DNA from: Methylophilaceae bacterium
Lineage (GTDB): Bacteria; Pseudomonadota; Gammaproteobacteria; Burkholderiales; Methylophilaceae
NCBI GenBank assembly: GCA_027488395.1
Contig: JAIYBT010000026.1
Coordinates: forward strand, 1-64,000
Length of the DNA: 64,000 nt
Direction of reading: 5' to 3'
Program-made: the position numbers and the translations under genes
The notes under the pieces: generated by a model
Seen by the model: only the letters and a program-made list of their open reading frames with translations
Told to the model about the DNA's origin: nothing
Databases searched by the model: none
Part shown: positions 32,655 to 39,497 of the stretch, in pieces
How the letters are laid out: each line of letters begins with the position of its first letter
Numbering within the stretch: position 1 is the stretch's first letter

Positions 32655-33470
32655 TTATTTGTTTTCACAGCTGGGCAACGCCAGTGCTTGCAAAATATCG
32701 CCGCTATTTGGTTGCTCCACAAAAGCGACCACGGTTAAATCACGCGGCTTCCAACTGCGATCAATGTTGAGGCTGTGACTGGCTTGGGTATGGCCGTCAG
32801 CATTTAATTTAAAAGGCCCTAGCCACTGACGTACCACGTAATCATGACGCAACACGGTGCCACGATTTTCACCTGCTTTCACGGTTGACGCTAATTGATG
32901 TTCTTGCAAGGCGATGTAGTAGACCAAAGGTCGTGTCTCTTGACTATGAATGTCCGCCATGACGTGCATGGTCTCGCTAGCTTGCATTTCCAGCGTGAGT
33001 TTGATCTCGGCTTTGGCGGGCATACGATTGATGGCCGCGATCTCATTGTGAAAGCGCGCATCATTGACCCAGCTACGATGGTCTTTACCTTGCATTACCA
33101 CTTGTGGCGTATACACCGCACGCGCACCGCCCAGCGCAGCAATGTCACGTTGTCGTTTGGCAAATGCAGGTTGCGCAAAGCGATCTTGCCAGCCGATGTA
33201 ATCCCAGTAGTCAACATGCAACGCCAATGGCACCCATTGACCCAAGCCTTTATGTTGTTGTTTTAGGCGGCTGAGCCATTGATCGGCGGGTGGACAACTG
33301 CTGCATCCCTCCGAGGTATAAAGCTCAATTAAAGCGTTAGTTTGGGCGCCGCTCACAGCACTACACGTCTGTGCTAACGCATTGGATGTAGCTAATACAT
33401 GGGATGCAGCTAATACATGTGATGCACTTAGGGCTAAGCACGCACGGACAACAAAGGGTAGGGGTTTCAT
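32655..33470 (-). CDS. exported DUF1223 (thioredoxin-like fold) protein
   Basis: 271 residues from ATG 33470, which follows TGGAGTCAAGCC; the frame is open to 33512. The secretion signal is unusual: ASHVLA-ASHVLA-TSNALA, a three-fold hexapeptide repeat. The mature part begins ALIELYTSEGCSSCPPADQWLSRL with a CxxC motif in thioredoxin position, then VDYWDYIGWQDRFAQPAFAKRQRDIA and VYTPQVVMQGKDHRSW, all diagnostic of DUF1223. Function is not established; a periplasmic redox or metal role is suggested by the CSSC motif. Confidence 0.88.
   Translation of the reverse strand: MKPLPFVVRACLALSASHVLAASHVLATSNALAQTCSAVSGAQTNALIELYTSEGCSSCPPADQWLSRLKQQHKGLGQWVPLALHVDYWDYIGWQDRFAQPAFAKRQRDIAALGGARAVYTPQVVMQGKDHRSWVNDARFHNEIAAINRMPAKAEIKLTLEMQASETMHVMADIHSQETRPLVYYIALQEHQLASTVKAGENRGTVLRHDYVVRQWLGPFKLNADGHTQASHSLNIDRSWKPRDLTVVAFVEQPNSGDILQALALPSCENK
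33379..33432 (-). repeat. three 18-bp tandem repeats inside a signal-peptide region
   Basis: Units at 33379-33396, 33397-33414 and 33415-33432 (GCATTGGATGTAGCTAAT, ACATGGGATGCAGCTAAT, ACATGTGATGCACTTAGG). In frame, each adds six residues to the DUF1223 leader. Confidence 0.85.
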
Positions 33471-33615
33471 GGCTTGACTCCATTCATCAAAGGTAGTCAT
33501 TGGTCGCGTCAATCGTTAAACCCTTACAAGGTCCCTGGTGAAGGTCGCCATGTTCAGTCTGTTCTTAGGTGTTTATGCCGTAAATAACCGCTGCCAATGC
33601 GGTGATTGTGCGGCG

Positions 33616-33795: not shown

Positions 33796-34014
33796 GTTGG
33801 ATACTCGACAGGGAAACGTCCACTGTAACAGGCTTGTGTGGTGATGCACTGCTTTATATTGAATGTTGCGAGCGGTTGAAAAATATAAAGAATACATCGT
33901 CCGCATATTACAGCGCTGCGAATTTATTTTTAAAAGTGTGTAAGGCAACCCACCCTGCATCGACTAAGGGTTGTTAGCTGACACCCTTATAAATCTTTTG
34001 ATGGAGTAACGACA

Positions 34015-34479
34015 ATGAACATGAAATTAAACCTTGGTCTGGCTGTATTGTTAGGTGTTGTGACCATGCACGTGGCGCAAGCAGCAGAACTATTCACCGG
34101 CGGCTATGCCCGTGAGTTTCAAACCATGGGCATGATGAAAATATTAGATGCAGACGGCAATCATATGGTGACCGAAGCAGAATTTAATCAATATCACACC
34201 GCTGTCTTTAACGGCTTAGACCGTAACCAAGATGGTCGTTTAGATCAATCTGAGTGGACGGGCACGCAATCTGAAAAAATGGCCACCTTAGGTACGGGCG
34301 GCTATCTGCGCGAATTAAGTAATCTGGCCATGATGGATGCGGCCGATGCGAATCAAGACCACGTGGTCACCAAAGAAGAATTTTTAAAGTTTCAAGGTAA
34401 AGTGTTTGTGAAACTGGACCGCAAAGCCGATAAACAGATTGACGCACAAGAGTTTGTTGCCAAATTGGTAGGAAGCTAA
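34015..34479 (+). CDS. exported EF-hand calcium-binding protein
   Basis: 154 residues with signal peptide MNMKLNLGLAVLLGVVTMHVAQA. Calcium loops of EF-hand type: DADGNHMVTEAE, DRNQDGRLDQSE, DANQDHVVTKEE and a weaker DRKADKQIDAQE. The two halves repeat each other (TGGYAREFQTMGMMKILDAD and TGGYLRELSNLAMMDAAD), so the gene arose by internal duplication. TGGAGTAACGACA precedes the ATG. Probably a periplasmic calcium buffer or sensor. It ends at a strong terminator. Confidence 0.9.
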   Translation: MNMKLNLGLAVLLGVVTMHVAQAAELFTGGYAREFQTMGMMKILDADGNHMVTEAEFNQYHTAVFNGLDRNQDGRLDQSEWTGTQSEKMATLGTGGYLRELSNLAMMDAADANQDHVVTKEEFLKFQGKVFVKLDRKADKQIDAQEFVAKLVGS

Positions 34480-35459: not shown

Positions 35460-35664
35460 GGGGTGTAGGGCCTGAATAACGCTTAAGAAACAAACTTGAG
35501 TTTAGCATGGCTTTGCAAGCATACTGAGGTCGTAAGCCAAGGCTGATGTATCCTCTGGATTCGGGCGATATCGGTTGGAGGATGGCTACGCAACGCGAGG
35601 GTAAAAAAATGTGCATGCATGCCGTTAAAAGGTATGCCGTAAAAAAGTTGTAAGGAAATGGTTG

Positions 35665-35676
35665 TGGTCACGACCA
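35665..35676. promoter_or_regulatory. short palindrome upstream of the Cys-rich precursor
   Basis: TGGTC-AC-GACCA, 59 bp before the precursor ATG, directly preceded by TTGTAAGGAAA. The arrangement could be an operator or part of an ECF-type promoter; arms are only 5 bp, so this is weak. Confidence 0.25.
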
Positions 35677-35734
35677 AAGGTGGTAGGACAAGCGATTCAT
35701 GATGTTTGTATTGAATATTTTTTAAGGAGCACTG

Positions 35735-36001
35735 ATGAAAACCACACAACAATTAGCCGCTGCAGCATTATTAGGGTTATTTACCGCGACGGTCATGAGC
35801 GCAAGCCCAGCGTTTGCCGCGCATGATGAAAAATCTGCTTGCGCTGGTAAAGACAGCAGTATGGAAAAATCGGGCTGCAAAACCGCCGACACCAAAGAAA
35901 AGCATGCGTGTAAAGGCCACAATACCTGCAAAGGTCAGGGTGCAGATGGTAAAAATGCCTGTAAAGGTAAAGGCTCTTGCGCAACGGATGGCAGTAAATA
36001 A
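35735..36001 (+). CDS. Cys-rich secreted peptide, probable bufferin-type RiPP precursor
   Basis: 88 residues with a Sec signal peptide (MKTTQQLAAAALLGLFTATVMSASPAFA, about 1-28). The mature part is 60 residues of Lys, Gly, Asp and six cysteines: C36, C48, C59, C65, C76, C82. Two spaced pairs repeat a KG pattern: ACKGHNTCKGQG and ACKGKGSC. AAGGAG lies five bases before the ATG. This matches precursors that accompany DUF692 enzymes: such peptides are exported and, in the characterised bufferins, have cysteines turned into thiooxazole groups that bind copper. The neighbouring gene encodes the DUF692-DUF2063 fusion. The exact peptide family and metal are inferred. Confidence 0.78.
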   Translation: MKTTQQLAAAALLGLFTATVMSASPAFAAHDEKSACAGKDSSMEKSGCKTADTKEKHACKGHNTCKGQGADGKNACKGKGSCATDGSK

Positions 36002-36044
36002 TACGCTCACCGCTTAAACAGGATGGTTGGGTGAAATAGGATTG

Positions 36045-36154
36045 CCGGGTTAAGTGTGATGACTAGTTTCAATGTGATGACTGGGTTGAGTAAAATGCAT
36101 GGGCTGAACACAATCACTTGGTTGAATACAGTGACCCCGTTGAACCAGATTAAC
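36045..36154 (+). repeat. degenerate 17-19 bp tandem repeats in the precursor-enzyme spacer
   Basis: Six imperfect units in a row, for example GGGTTAAGTGTGATGAC, AGTTTCAATGTGATGAC, TGGGTTGAGTAAAATGCAT, TTGGTTGAATACAGTGAC and CCCGTTGAACCAGATTAAC. They fill the spacer between the Cys-rich peptide gene and the terminator. Confidence 0.65.
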
Positions 36155-36157
36155 ATG

Positions 36158-36181
36158 GCAGGGCAATGGCCCTGCTTTTTT
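36158..36181 (+). terminator. terminator/attenuator between precursor and modifying enzyme
   Basis: GCAGGGC-AATG-GCCCTGC followed by six T (36176-36181). It ends 17 bp before the preferred start of the DUF692 gene and covers the alternative start at 36166. Partial read-through would give much more precursor than enzyme. Confidence 0.9.
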
Positions 36182-36198
36182 GCTGGGCGGCGGCACCC

Positions 36199-37905
36199 AT
36201 GGCACTGATGAATCCATTAGCAACCCCAATGCCTAATTTGGGATTTGGATTGGGGCTACGGCCCACGCATTATCCGTATATTTTTGAACACCAGCCGCAG
36301 GTAGACTGGTTTGAGATTATTTCGGAAAACTTTATGGATACCGACGGTAAGCCGAAACGCAATTTGGCCCAAATCAAAGCGCGTTATCCGATTGTCATGC
36401 ATGGCGTATCACTGTCGATTGGCAGTGTAGACCCGCTCAATACCGAATATCTGACCAAACTGAAAGCCTTGATTGACTGGGTGGCACCGGTCTGGGTCTC
36501 CGACCACTTATGTTGGACTGGCGTTGCCCATCACAACACCCACGATTTACTGCCTTTGCCCTACACGGAAGCATCGTTGAAGCATATTGTGCAGCGGATT
36601 CGTCAAGTGCAAGACACGCTGGGGCGCAGAATTGCGCTTGAAAACCCATCCACCTATTTAGAGTTTAAGCATTCAACCATCCCTGAGGCCGAATTTATTT
36701 CGGCGATGGCGCAAGCGGCAGACTGCCATTTGTTGTTGGATGTCAATAATGTATATGTGAGCTGTTACAACCATCGGTTGGATGCCCAAGCCTACCTAGA
36801 TGCGTTGCCGCTGGACCGCGTGATCCAAGTTCACCTGTCCGGACATCGCCACAAAGACACCCATATCATTGATACCCATGATGACCATGTCACCGATGCT
36901 GTTTGGGCACTCTACCAATACGTGGTGGAACGCGCAGGGCGTGTGCCCAACACCATGATTGAATGGGATGATCAGATTCCTGATTTTCCAGTATTGGCGG
37001 CCGAATTAGACAAAGCACGGCAGGCGGCGCAACTGGCCGTGCGCTACGCGATGCCACCACCTGCATCGCCAGCAGAAACAACCCTTACCGTTGCAAACGA
37101 GGTGACCTTGCATGCGGCACAAACCCAATTGCAACAAGCCATTGTGCTCGGCGATCGCTTTGATAGCCAGCCCGCGGCATGGATACGGGCTAACGTGGAT
37201 TTCGCCCCGCATGCGCAATTGTCGGTGTACAGCGATGCCTACCGTTATCGTTTGTTTGATGTGGTGGCAGAAGATTATCCCGTACTTAAACACTACCTGA
37301 CGCCACCAGTGTTTGATGATGTGCTGTGGGGGTTGATTGCAACCGTGCAACCAGACCATTTTAATATTGGCCGATATGCACTTAAGTTTCCCGCGTTTAT
37401 GCAAAACACAGTGGCCGACGCGGCTGCCGTGAGCCTATGTCAATTGGAAACTTTGGTGGCGCAAATGACCGATCCGCCTGAAACGGCAGTGCTAGAGGTC
37501 TCTCAATTGCAAGGCCTGACCGCTGAAAGCATGATGAGGTTAACGCTCACACCGCGCGCAGCGCTGACCTTGGTGCAGTTTGACCAAGCGGTGAATGCCT
37601 ATTATCAAGCGGTGATGGATGCGGTGGAGGTGGCTACGATTGACAATACGCCTGAAGCGTTGGTGGTGTATCGGCATGAAGACGTGGTGTGGCGCATGCC
37701 GTTAGCACCACAAGAGTTTAACTTACTCAGCGCCTTGTTTAACGGGGCTACCGTGGGTGAAGCCTTAGCCACATTAGATGCGGATGCGGCCCCAACAGTC
37801 ATGGGCTATTTTTCAAAATGGATGAGAAACGGCTTGTTGGCGGCGCCTAACGCGGTCAATACAGCCAATCCACCGCAACAGGCGCAAACCGCATGCATAC
37901 TTTAA
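36199..37905 (+). CDS. DUF692-DUF2063 fusion: MNIO-type iron oxidase with its partner domain (BufB-BufC-like)
   Basis: 568 residues from ATG 36199; ATG 36166 lies inside a terminator hairpin and is unlikely. Residues about 1-290 are a DUF692 TIM barrel of the multinuclear non-heme iron oxidase family (MbnB, BufB), with the metal-binding set visible: H68 ([10 protein letters not shown]), D102-H103 (SDHLCW), E148 (ENPSTY), D181-N183 (DVNNVY), H212 (VHLSGH), the DTHDDH stretch and E255 (MIEWDD). Residues about 300-568 are a DUF2063-type partner domain ([40 protein letters not shown]), usually a separate protein that presents the peptide. Here both are one chain. Expected role: oxidising cysteines of the upstream peptide before export. 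Its 3' end overlaps a DoxX-like remnant. Confidence 0.85.
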
Positions 37906-38063
37906 CCTGGTTATGTATTGTGTGGCCCAACACCATCGCAGGCCCGTTGCAGTGGTTGGGACCATTGATCGCCCGTGTGGTGGTTCGCTCGTGCGGCGCT
38001 ACAGCCACCCTCACACCTCAGCGTGATGGTAGGCGGTTAGCGGTCAGTCGCTTTAGGCGGTGA
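37893..38063 (+). pseudogene. truncated DoxX-like gene start (BufD-like remnant)
   Basis: ATG 37893 overlaps the end of the fusion gene, as expected in an operon. The first 31 codons read [17 protein letters not shown] then PLQWLGPLIARVVV, like the opening of the DoxX membrane proteins that end many DUF692 operons. Similarity then stops and the frame closes after 56 codons, inside the 3' end of the convergent MocR gene. A full DoxX is about 140 residues, so this seems to be a deletion relic. Chance resemblance cannot be excluded. Confidence 0.4.
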
Positions 38064-39497
38064 AGTGTTTGAAGTGGCGGCGGCGGATACCATGGCACAA
38101 GCCAACGCACCCACTTCACGCAGCGCTTGCTCAATCGCCAAGGTCCATACATGGCTAAAATTGAGTCGAATCGCGTGGGTAAATGCTTTGTTACGCGAAA
38201 AAATCGTCCCCGGCGCGACCGTGATGCCGCGATCGAGTGCTGCACGGTAGAGGCTGAGCGCATCTATGCTGGACGGCAAGCTGAGCCATAACACATAACC
38301 GCCCTGCGGCGTTGACAGCTGCGTACCTTCAGGAAAGCTTTGCAGCACCACATTGCGCATCAAGACGTGATTTGATCGCAAGGTATGGCGCAACGCTTTG
38401 AGGTGGTGCTGATAACTGTCGCGTTGCAGAAATTTTGCAATGGCAAGTTGTGGCGGCGTACTCAGCGACAAGCTATTTAAAAACATCAGGCGTTCTACCT
38501 CTGGGCGATAGCGCCCAGCGCTGGTCCAACCGAGTCGAAACCCTGGGGCAAGCGATTTTGAAAAGGAACCGCAATGCAACACCATGCCGTTCGTATCATA
38601 CATTTTAGCGGGCGGCGGTGGGGTGTCACTAAACGATAACTCGGCATACACATCGTCTTCAATCAGTGGAATCGCATGCGCCGATAACAATTGCACCAAG
38701 GCTTGTTTTTTTGCAGACGGCATCACAAACCCCAGCGGGTTTTGAAAGCTGGTAGTGATGAGGACGGCTGCCAGCCTGACATTACCGATGACAGCCAGCA
38801 AGGCATCTAATTCGATACCGCTCTCCGCATGCGTGCGCACTTCTAGCGCTTTCATGCCTAGCCGTTCAATGGTGTGGGCGAGTGCATAATAACCTGGCGA
38901 TTCAATTGCAATCACATCGCCGGCCTTGGCCACCGCTTGCAGGCATAAGGTGATCGCCTCGGTGGCGCCGTGGGTGATGACAATTTCATCGGGTGAGAGC
39001 GTTATGCCAAGATCTAAATAGCGGCGGGCAATTTGTTGCCTTAAGCGTAGATTGCCAGGCGGTAAATCGCTGAGCACGCCCCATTCTCCGCCATCACGAC
39101 TAAACGTTTGCACCGATTGATGCAGTTTTTTCAGCGGAAATAATTGTGGGTCTGGAAAAGGGGAGCCTAATGGCACTGTGCCAAATTCACGGATTGATTT
39201 TAAGGTGGTCAGCACCAGTTTGCTGGCGTCAATCTCGGCCAAGTCGAGATCTTTTGCGAGTGCCGTTTGCAGCTTGGGGCTGGCTTTTAAACGGTGACAC
39301 ACGTAATAGCCTGATTGCGGGTGGCTGGCGATCATGCCTTCTTGTTCTAACAACAAGTAGCCTCTGAGCACCGTGCTGACACTTAAATCAAACTGCTTGC
39401 TGGCGGCACGCACCGACAACATTTTTTCACCTGGGCGCAGGACCCCTTCATCAATCATTGCACGCATACGCGCGGCAAACGAGACATACAGCTTCAT
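38037..39497 (-). CDS. MocR/GntR-type transcription regulator with aminotransferase domain
   Basis: 486 residues. The N-terminal winged helix (about 1-70) has MIDEGVLRPGEKMLSVRAASKQFDLSVSTVLRGYLLLEQEGMI broken across the usual GntR pattern, followed by a fold-type I aminotransferase domain: HGATEAITLCLQAVAKAGD, TSFQNPLGFVMP, DDVYAEL and the PLP Lys in GSFSKSLAPGFRLGW. MocR proteins sense PLP-linked ligands and control nearby genes, often of vitamin B6, taurine or amine metabolism. The target cannot be read from context: the neighbours are an unrelated oxidoreductase operon and the bufferin-like cluster. Confidence 0.9.
   Translation of the reverse strand: MKLYVSFAARMRAMIDEGVLRPGEKMLSVRAASKQFDLSVSTVLRGYLLLEQEGMIASHPQSGYYVCHRLKASPKLQTALAKDLDLAEIDASKLVLTTLKSIREFGTVPLGSPFPDPQLFPLKKLHQSVQTFSRDGGEWGVLSDLPPGNLRLRQQIARRYLDLGITLSPDEIVITHGATEAITLCLQAVAKAGDVIAIESPGYYALAHTIERLGMKALEVRTHAESGIELDALLAVIGNVRLAAVLITTSFQNPLGFVMPSAKKQALVQLLSAHAIPLIEDDVYAELSFSDTPPPPAKMYDTNGMVLHCGSFSKSLAPGFRLGWTSAGRYRPEVERLMFLNSLSLSTPPQLAIAKFLQRDSYQHHLKALRHTLRSNHVLMRNVVLQSFPEGTQLSTPQGGYVLWLSLPSSIDALSLYRAALDRGITVAPGTIFSRNKAFTHAIRLNFSHVWTLAIEQALREVGALACAMVSAAATSNTSPPKATDR

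Follow-up and report, generated by a model that had tools for sequence, protein, structure and literature searches.

In a 64,000-nt stretch of DNA from a Methylophilaceae bacterium (NCBI GenBank assembly GCA_027488395.1, contig JAIYBT010000026.1, positions 1 to 64,000; hereafter the window), we identified a locus that is probably a bufferin-type operon for a ribosomally synthesized and post-translationally modified peptide (RiPP), in which the multinuclear non-heme iron-dependent oxidative enzyme (MNIO) BufB and its partner BufC (DUF2063 plus a RiPP recognition element (RRE)-type domain) are made as one polypeptide. The direct evidence consists of the gene order, the two domains and the fold predicted for them, the retained iron ligands, conservation across genomes and phylogenies of the two halves. 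Neither bufferins nor MNIO chemistry nor the partner family is new; the locus is a natural single-chain variant of such a system, with a well-supported architecture and lineage and a chemistry assigned by analogy. A preliminary description of the sequence had proposed a secreted 88-residue peptide with six cysteines followed by a 568-residue fusion protein, and we recovered both open reading frames (ORFs) at 35735–36001 and 36199–37905. The core features are as follows.

35735..36001, + strand: six-Cys precursor peptide, BufA2-like, 88 aa (ORF, NF050166 score, counterparts in nine relatives).
36199..37905, + strand: fused bufferin maturase, 568 aa, MNIO with linker and DUF2063/RRE-type partner (profiles, AlphaFold2, Foldseek).
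36244..37029, + strand: MNIO (DUF692, BufB-type) TIM barrel, residues 16–277 (Pfam, NCBIfam, TglH alignment).
37045..37107, + strand: inter-domain linker, residues ~283–303 (variable in alignment A1; coil in the model).
37120..37401, + strand: DUF2063 helical domain, residues 308–401 (PF09836).
37558..37842, + strand: predicted RRE-type winged-helix domain, residues ~454–548 (model secondary structure and Foldseek; limits set by eye).

Both halves of the enzyme were recognized by family profiles. Residues 16–277 matched PF05114 (MNIO) with 365.6 bits (cut-off 25) and residues 308–401 matched PF09836 (DUF2063) with 36.8 bits, above the gathering cut-off of 27.2. On the BufB model NF050167 the enzyme half scored 375.3 bits and passed the curated cut-off of 310, while the HvfB model of NCBIfam ranked behind it (259.4 bits, below its cut-off of 360). 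An alternative in-frame ATG at 36166 falls inside the hairpin described below, and relatives such as L004 (L and G numbers denote loci and genomes in our survey) begin at the equivalent of 36199, so 36199 is the likelier start.

AlphaFold2, supplied with 93 aligned sequences from the window and the surveyed loci, predicted the whole chain with a mean local confidence (pLDDT) of 93.7 and a pTM of 0.91; residues 1–4 and 554–568 fell below 50, and the linker blocks reached 86 and 77. A Foldseek search with the whole model returned 3bww (TMt 0.89), TglH, MbnB and NGO1945 (3dee; TMt 0.74 over 217 columns, E = 5.5e-6). Because 3dee is a solved DUF2063-RRE partner, this last match is possible only to the C-terminal half, and since the VIA-align rows cover almost solely residues 12–283, the fold assignment of the partner half rests on Foldseek. 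By predicted fold only, then, the C-terminal domain appears to be of the RRE type; the Pfam family NGO1945_C had no match in the window protein and matched 6 of 22 fused proteins. In TglH, iron is held by H71, H107, E151, D184, H216 and E258 (Fe1/Fe2) and by D184, N187, D229 and H231 (Fe3) (PMC10880893). All nine residues have an aligned counterpart in the window protein (H68, H103, E148, D181, N184, H212, D225, H227 and E255), and these positions are invariant in 22 fused proteins (alignment A2). The fusion, its metal-binding residues and the bufferin-like character of the cluster, as stated in the preliminary description, were borne out.

The precursor begins with a Sec-like stretch (judged by eye) and carries six cysteines, partly in a CKG spacing (CKGHNTCKGQG, CKGKGSC). 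All six are present in the window peptide and its nine Methylophilus counterparts (9/9), as in BufA2; six cysteines are reported for 90% of Buf2 (PMC12452194). Judged by eye, the window peptide lacks the Cys-x-AK-x-G type C-terminus of the peptides inspected from separate-gene Methylophilaceae loci.

Compared with described bufferin systems (BufA1/BufA2, the MNIO BufB, the DUF2063-RRE protein BufC and DoxX), the window shares the gene order, a Sec-type cysteine peptide, a BufB-level MNIO and a DUF2063 plus RRE-type partner, with DoxX present in its relatives; it differs in joining BufB and BufC in one chain, in a peptide below the BufA2 cut-off and in a broken doxX. That the two proteins are usually separate, as had been noted before, is correct for the described systems. 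Methanobactin MbnABC and 3-thiaglutamate TglHI also combine an MNIO fold with a separate recognition subunit, and TglH specifically shares its iron ligands with the window enzyme. Their partner families and products differ from those of the window system. The oxazolin system HvfABC of Haemophilus likewise pairs an MNIO with a DUF2063/RRE partner on a Sec-signal cysteine peptide (PMC13419390), whereas the window has other cysteine motifs and an MNIO of the BufB, not the HvfB, subfamily by NCBIfam. An engineered HvfBC fusion described in the same paper has the domain order of the window enzyme; it is man-made and without a linker, whereas the window fusion is natural and has a linker of ~20 residues. 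MovX, an MNIO with a fused C-terminal RRE, also carries its recognition part on the MNIO chain, and its description as an RRE fusion only sets it apart from the DUF2063 plus RRE-type fusion of the window (PMC13419390). MNIO-nitroreductase fusions and DUF2063-RRE partners are listed in PMC12452194, and we met no MNIO-DUF2063 fusion in its passages on fusions. The passages searched in open-licence PMC papers likewise yielded no natural MNIO-DUF2063 fusion, while in sequence databases generic names already cover such fused proteins.

To determine how widespread the fusion is, we searched 187 Methylophilaceae genomes, of which 113 had any match and 10 a fused gene. All ten belong to the genus Methylophilus (10 of 22 listed genomes); G067 and G070 instead have a separate BufB-type gene with 54–57% identity. 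The nine further Methylophilus fusions share 70–78% enzyme identity, contain no internal stop and keep the same peptide-fusion pair, so that a six-Cys peptide precedes the fusion in 10/10 cases. Among the best 80 of 564 relatives in genome contigs, 11 loci had a single fused ORF: three Methylophilus loci already counted, seven alphaproteobacterial metagenome-assembled genomes (MAGs; L038–L044), two of them labelled Rickettsiales, and one locus labelled Deltaproteobacteria (L054). In a Rhizobium plasmid record, genes for a DUF2282 peptide, a fusion protein of 598 aa and DoxX follow one another. Broader samples gave fused genes in at least 12 of 399 genomes for the order (196 with any match), at least 4 of 369 for the class (222) and at least 2 of 398 for the phylum (145); these samples overlap, and the counts are lower bounds because they cover the listed matches with long frames. 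The fusion expected from the preliminary description is real but not unique: one clade of Methylophilus and alphaproteobacterial members shares it, and similar fusions occur in other parts of the MNIO tree.

All 22 fused proteins tested with both families matched PF05114 and PF09836 at E ≤ 0.01; the fusions at L155, L157 and L158 were tested with custom profiles only. A long open frame was a poor proxy for fusion: 10 of 18 such regions were fused (L123–L129, L131, L132, L136) and 8 were not, and in 12 further regions 3 were fused (L155, L157, L158), the other 9 being upstream extensions or separate frames. Fusions in other groups stand next to DUF2282-like peptides (L126, L127, L129, L131 and L136 by eye, L032 by Pfam) as well as Buf2-like peptides (L123 and L054, by eye). 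That fusions recur with both bufferin types suggests that, in several subfamilies, the partner is positioned relative to the barrel in a way that permits a C-to-N join.

Phylogenies of both halves group the Methylophilus fusions with those of the alphaproteobacterial MAGs, which are their closest relatives. A 144-row MNIO-domain tree placed the window enzyme and its nine Methylophilus counterparts in a starred group (support 96), nested in one clade of 17 fused enzymes (10 Methylophilus and L038–L044; support 86, not starred). The same 17 members grouped in a 63-row MNIO tree (support 90) and in a 115-row tree of the partner halves (support 96.7). Vertical descent from Methylophilaceae enzymes was rejected by an approximately unbiased (AU) test with 18 of the 20 separate enzymes (L013 and L016 omitted; p = 0.005); these 18 are not a clean clade, and a repeat with the 16 that are, on the 63-row tree, gave p = 0.002. 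Taken together, the clade of 17 and the AU rejections indicate that the fused gene most likely came from outside Methylophilus; judged from these sequences, horizontal transfer into the genus is the most likely route.

By distance, the nearest unfused partner halves are five alphaproteobacterial ones (L048, L067, L068, L073, L109). In the 144-row MNIO tree these five, the fused clade and another group meet in a three-way fork. All five loci (5/5) have DUF2282 peptides, and in 4/5 the MNIO and partner genes share a 4-nt overlap, an arrangement seen in 34 of 86 separate pairs overall. The fusion could plausibly have arisen from two adjacent genes with such an overlap, although the position of the nearest unfused relatives is not firm. 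Across the 144-row tree we counted six changes between the fused and unfused state, at least three of them forced by starred branches; with 12 more MNIO rows there were nine (four forced), and with partner halves five (two forced). The tree method was the 'quick' one and several fused rows are long-branched, and such counts cannot separate gains from losses. When 26 of 29 fused rows were constrained to one clade, with L032, L054 and L132 omitted for their long branches, this single origin was rejected at p = 0.0147, which is suggestive rather than final. Several independent fusions are the simplest reading.

Peptides within the fused clade vary. That of the Rickettsiales-labelled MAG L041 resembles the Methylophilus pattern, and L038 and L039 also show the CKG spacing; L040, L042, L043 and L044 have different cysteine peptides. 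In the precursor of L038 (2072–2428), the CKG module is duplicated in tandem.

Downstream of the fusion, the window retains the beginning of a third gene.

37893..37984, + strand: doxX remnant, first ~30 codons (similarity to L003 doxX).

The cluster range originally proposed, ending at 38063, correctly included the peptide and the fusion but also took in an unnamed 56-aa ORF, whose first ~30 residues are the start of doxX; the remainder is missing. The stretch between the anchors 37984 and 38091 measures 106 bases here and 445 in L003, and homology to L003 resumes at 38091, past the end of the L003 doxX. A doxX ORF follows the fusion in all nine fused Methylophilus relatives (9/9; Pfam DoxX 73.8 bits in the single copy tested, L008). 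The truncation sits between the fusion and a convergent GntR-type aminotransferase gene (37893–38091). Bestrophin and aminotransferase genes flank the fused operon in the window, L003 and L004, with other surroundings in several other Methylophilus.

Upstream of the peptide gene and in the spacer before the enzyme gene, we found candidate control elements, with two further copies of the promoter motif nearby.

35649..35677, + strand: candidate promoter of the extracytoplasmic function (ECF) sigma type, TGTAAG-N17-GACCAA, 58 nt before the peptide start (conserved motif).
36157..36182, + strand: terminator-like hairpin with T run in the precursor-enzyme spacer, possible attenuator (folding energy, scan).
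33939..33967, + strand: promoter motif before a secreted EF-hand protein (34015–34479) (motif scan).
33500..33528, − strand: promoter motif in its GACCAA form, where the DUF1223 protein ORF starts (32655–33512) (motif scan).

These elements, the broken doxX and the signs of horizontal origin were missing from the preliminary account, which had the cluster itself right. The motif was derived from the 10 fused Methylophilus loci, all of which carry TGTAAG-N17-GACTAA upstream of the peptide (GACCAA in the window), and was then sought in separate-gene Methylophilaceae loci. There it was present in 16/20, for a total of 26/30; of the four loci without it, L019 is truncated by a contig end. It was not found in the seven alphaproteobacterial fused loci L038–L044, and of the MNIO-related loci retrieved from other families, L121 alone carries it. 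The promoter sites at bufferin operons are therefore solid.

A wider regulon is a lead. A scan of the window gave three exact sites and one with one mismatch, compared with an expected mean of 0.31 (one mismatch allowed). Three copies lie within 2.2 kb, before the DUF1223, EF-hand and bufferin genes. The DUF1223 ORF matched PF06764 with 192.6 bits; the EF-hand ORF had EF-hand Pfam matches with four EF-hand_1 stretches and a sub-threshold lanmodulin match (40.9 bits, cut-off 135), which is of interest in a methylotroph. With a slightly wider pattern, the genome of the window contained six sites versus 0 in a reversed control: before bufA, the EF-hand and DUF1223 protein genes, cytochrome b561 and thioredoxin, and, possibly by chance, within an ECF sigma gene, immediately ahead of a zf-HC2 protein. 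In five relatives, a stricter pattern marked five bufferin operons, one DoxX gene and two dsbD-like genes (by eye), and none of these 8 sites precedes an EF-hand or DUF1223 gene. At 1501–1529 of L175, L176 and L180, from other Methylophilus genomes, the motif stands before a further DoxX gene and, in two of the genomes, before a dsbD-like gene; given two control matches in that search, chance is possible for the DoxX and dsbD-like sites. In G067, a site precedes a DUF1223 gene beside an unfused bufferin operon (L012, 672–700). In Caulobacter, comparable operons are preceded by sigma-F sites of the form GTAACC-N16-CGAA (PMC3511200), similar in kind to the window motif and different in letters. 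Our guess is that the ECF sigma factor at L170 reads the motif sites.

The hairpin region (36140–36190) folds with −21.2 kcal/mol (z −3.0). A perfect stem with a T run occurs in the bufA-enzyme spacer of 6/10 fused Methylophilus loci including the window, and the other 4/10 have an imperfect GC element (by eye); strict hairpins were also present in 3/7 alphaproteobacterial fused loci and 1/8 unfused loci tried. As an attenuator, the hairpin may hold the peptide above the enzyme. A sigma-70 scan found the region no richer than shuffles.

Several observations weigh against a bufferin-type operon acquired by transfer and driven by the family promoter. The only NCBIfam match of the precursor is BufA2 (NF050166; 36.7 bits, E = 3.5e-9), below the cut-off of 60, and no Pfam family matched at E ≤ 1, hence no DUF2282 (PF10048, BufA1), a family detected in 6/6 positive-control peptides from the unfused alphaproteobacterial loci and the Rhizobium fusion locus. 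On NF050166, five of nine further fused-clade peptides (L003, L006, L038, L039, L041) reached 28.8–36.7 bits and four were unmatched. Since a true DUF2282 peptide, that of L068, also scores 30.8 bits with this model, sub-threshold BufA2 scores alone cannot type a peptide; by sequence, the window peptide is nearest to BufA2 and at most 'BufA2-like'. Of the two domains and the bufferin precursor anticipated in the preliminary description, the profile searches thus recovered DUF692 and DUF2063 but no precursor above threshold. Of the DoxX gene, common though not universal in bufferin operons, the operon has only a remnant. The −10 element of its promoter candidate has a T-to-C change, the other form being kept in 25/26 sites; the 8 sites in relatives compare with 2 in the control, making for a weak regulon; and hairpins or terminator-like elements are no commoner in the region than in shuffles. 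On the phylogenetic side, the AU tests used groups defined with the tree already in view, the donor side rests on MAGs, and the union of the fused clade with the five unfused alphaproteobacterial pairs has a support of 51 in the 63-row tree. Finally, the open-licence PMC literature yielded no experiment on a natural fused member.

Three other explanations were considered. An active single-chain MNIO might make another product, with a different modification of the CKG cysteines, or might serve gold, zinc, thiol or redox stress instead of copper. The sub-threshold precursor, its missing Cys-x-AK-x-G type end and the motif copies before DUF1223, thioredoxin and cytochrome b561 genes favour this idea, which we nevertheless consider unlikely, as the enzyme passes the BufB equivalog cut-off and Caulobacter operons with the same gene set belong to a heavy-metal-responsive ECF regulon (PMC3511200). 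More improbable still is decay of the operon in this one genome, leaving it idle. The reduction of doxX to ~30 codons, the departure of the −10 element and a bufA-enzyme spacer of 197 bp versus 67–74 in nine relatives would fit decay, but neither the peptide nor the fusion is truncated and the ligands are retained, and doxX occurs in varied combinations in such clusters, as stated for the EGKCG class (PMC12452194). A sequencing or assembly artefact joining two adjacent genes has a negligible chance: we found no point in its support, and it is refuted by independent assemblies with the same fusion, namely nine further genomes in which it is free of stops, four of them single-contig (G061, G065, G066, G068), and seven MAGs.

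For the bufferin-type operon that we favour, a mechanism can be proposed. Metal or thiol stress at the envelope would switch the operon on through an ECF sigma factor, and the hairpin after bufA would keep the peptide in excess of the enzyme. The C-terminal RRE-type domain might grip the signal or leader part of the peptide and pass the CKG cysteines on to the diiron site in the barrel of the same chain, where they would be oxidized, most likely to 5-thiooxazoles; the peptide would then exit via Sec and, in the periplasm, bind Cu(I) or another soft metal of this kind that is in excess. For this locus, both the thiooxazole chemistry and the binding of copper are inferred by analogy. MNIO plus DUF2063 (PME1) systems are reported to install 5-thiooxazoles broadly, and one product bound Cu (PMC13097082), so this is the expected modification for the window peptide. 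The preliminary description called the modification unknown, which is true of this peptide but not of the studied PME1 systems. The fused gene, preceded by a peptide gene, most likely reached Methylophilus horizontally, with an alphaproteobacterial lineage as the source, and it now stands behind the promoter motif used by the unfused bufferin operons of the family. More tentatively, and with the odds somewhat against it, the fusion may be a recurrent, independently reached single-chain solution to a weak complex; here a self-sufficient peptide-enzyme-DoxX cassette would have moved between classes, switched from a DUF2282 to a CKG substrate and been captured by the resident ECF-type bufferin promoter of Methylophilaceae.

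The oxidation state of the MNIO iron cluster and its dependence on the partner are live questions. HvfB and HvfC bind weakly, work on them was hindered by a complex that forms only in part, and the authors of a 2026 preprint fused both proteins as a workaround and obtained higher activity (PMC13419390), in agreement with the earlier suggestion that a fusion eases study. The window enzyme is a natural counterpart of this recently hand-built fusion and would fix the 1:1 complex formed only partly in the studied two-protein system. Because MNIO-partner binding can be weak in vitro, a natural, linker-bearing fusion offers a ready single-chain enzyme for peptide-bound structures, spectroscopy and engineering. 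The shared promoter motif, in turn, provides a concrete and testable handle on the control of bufferins in methylotrophs.

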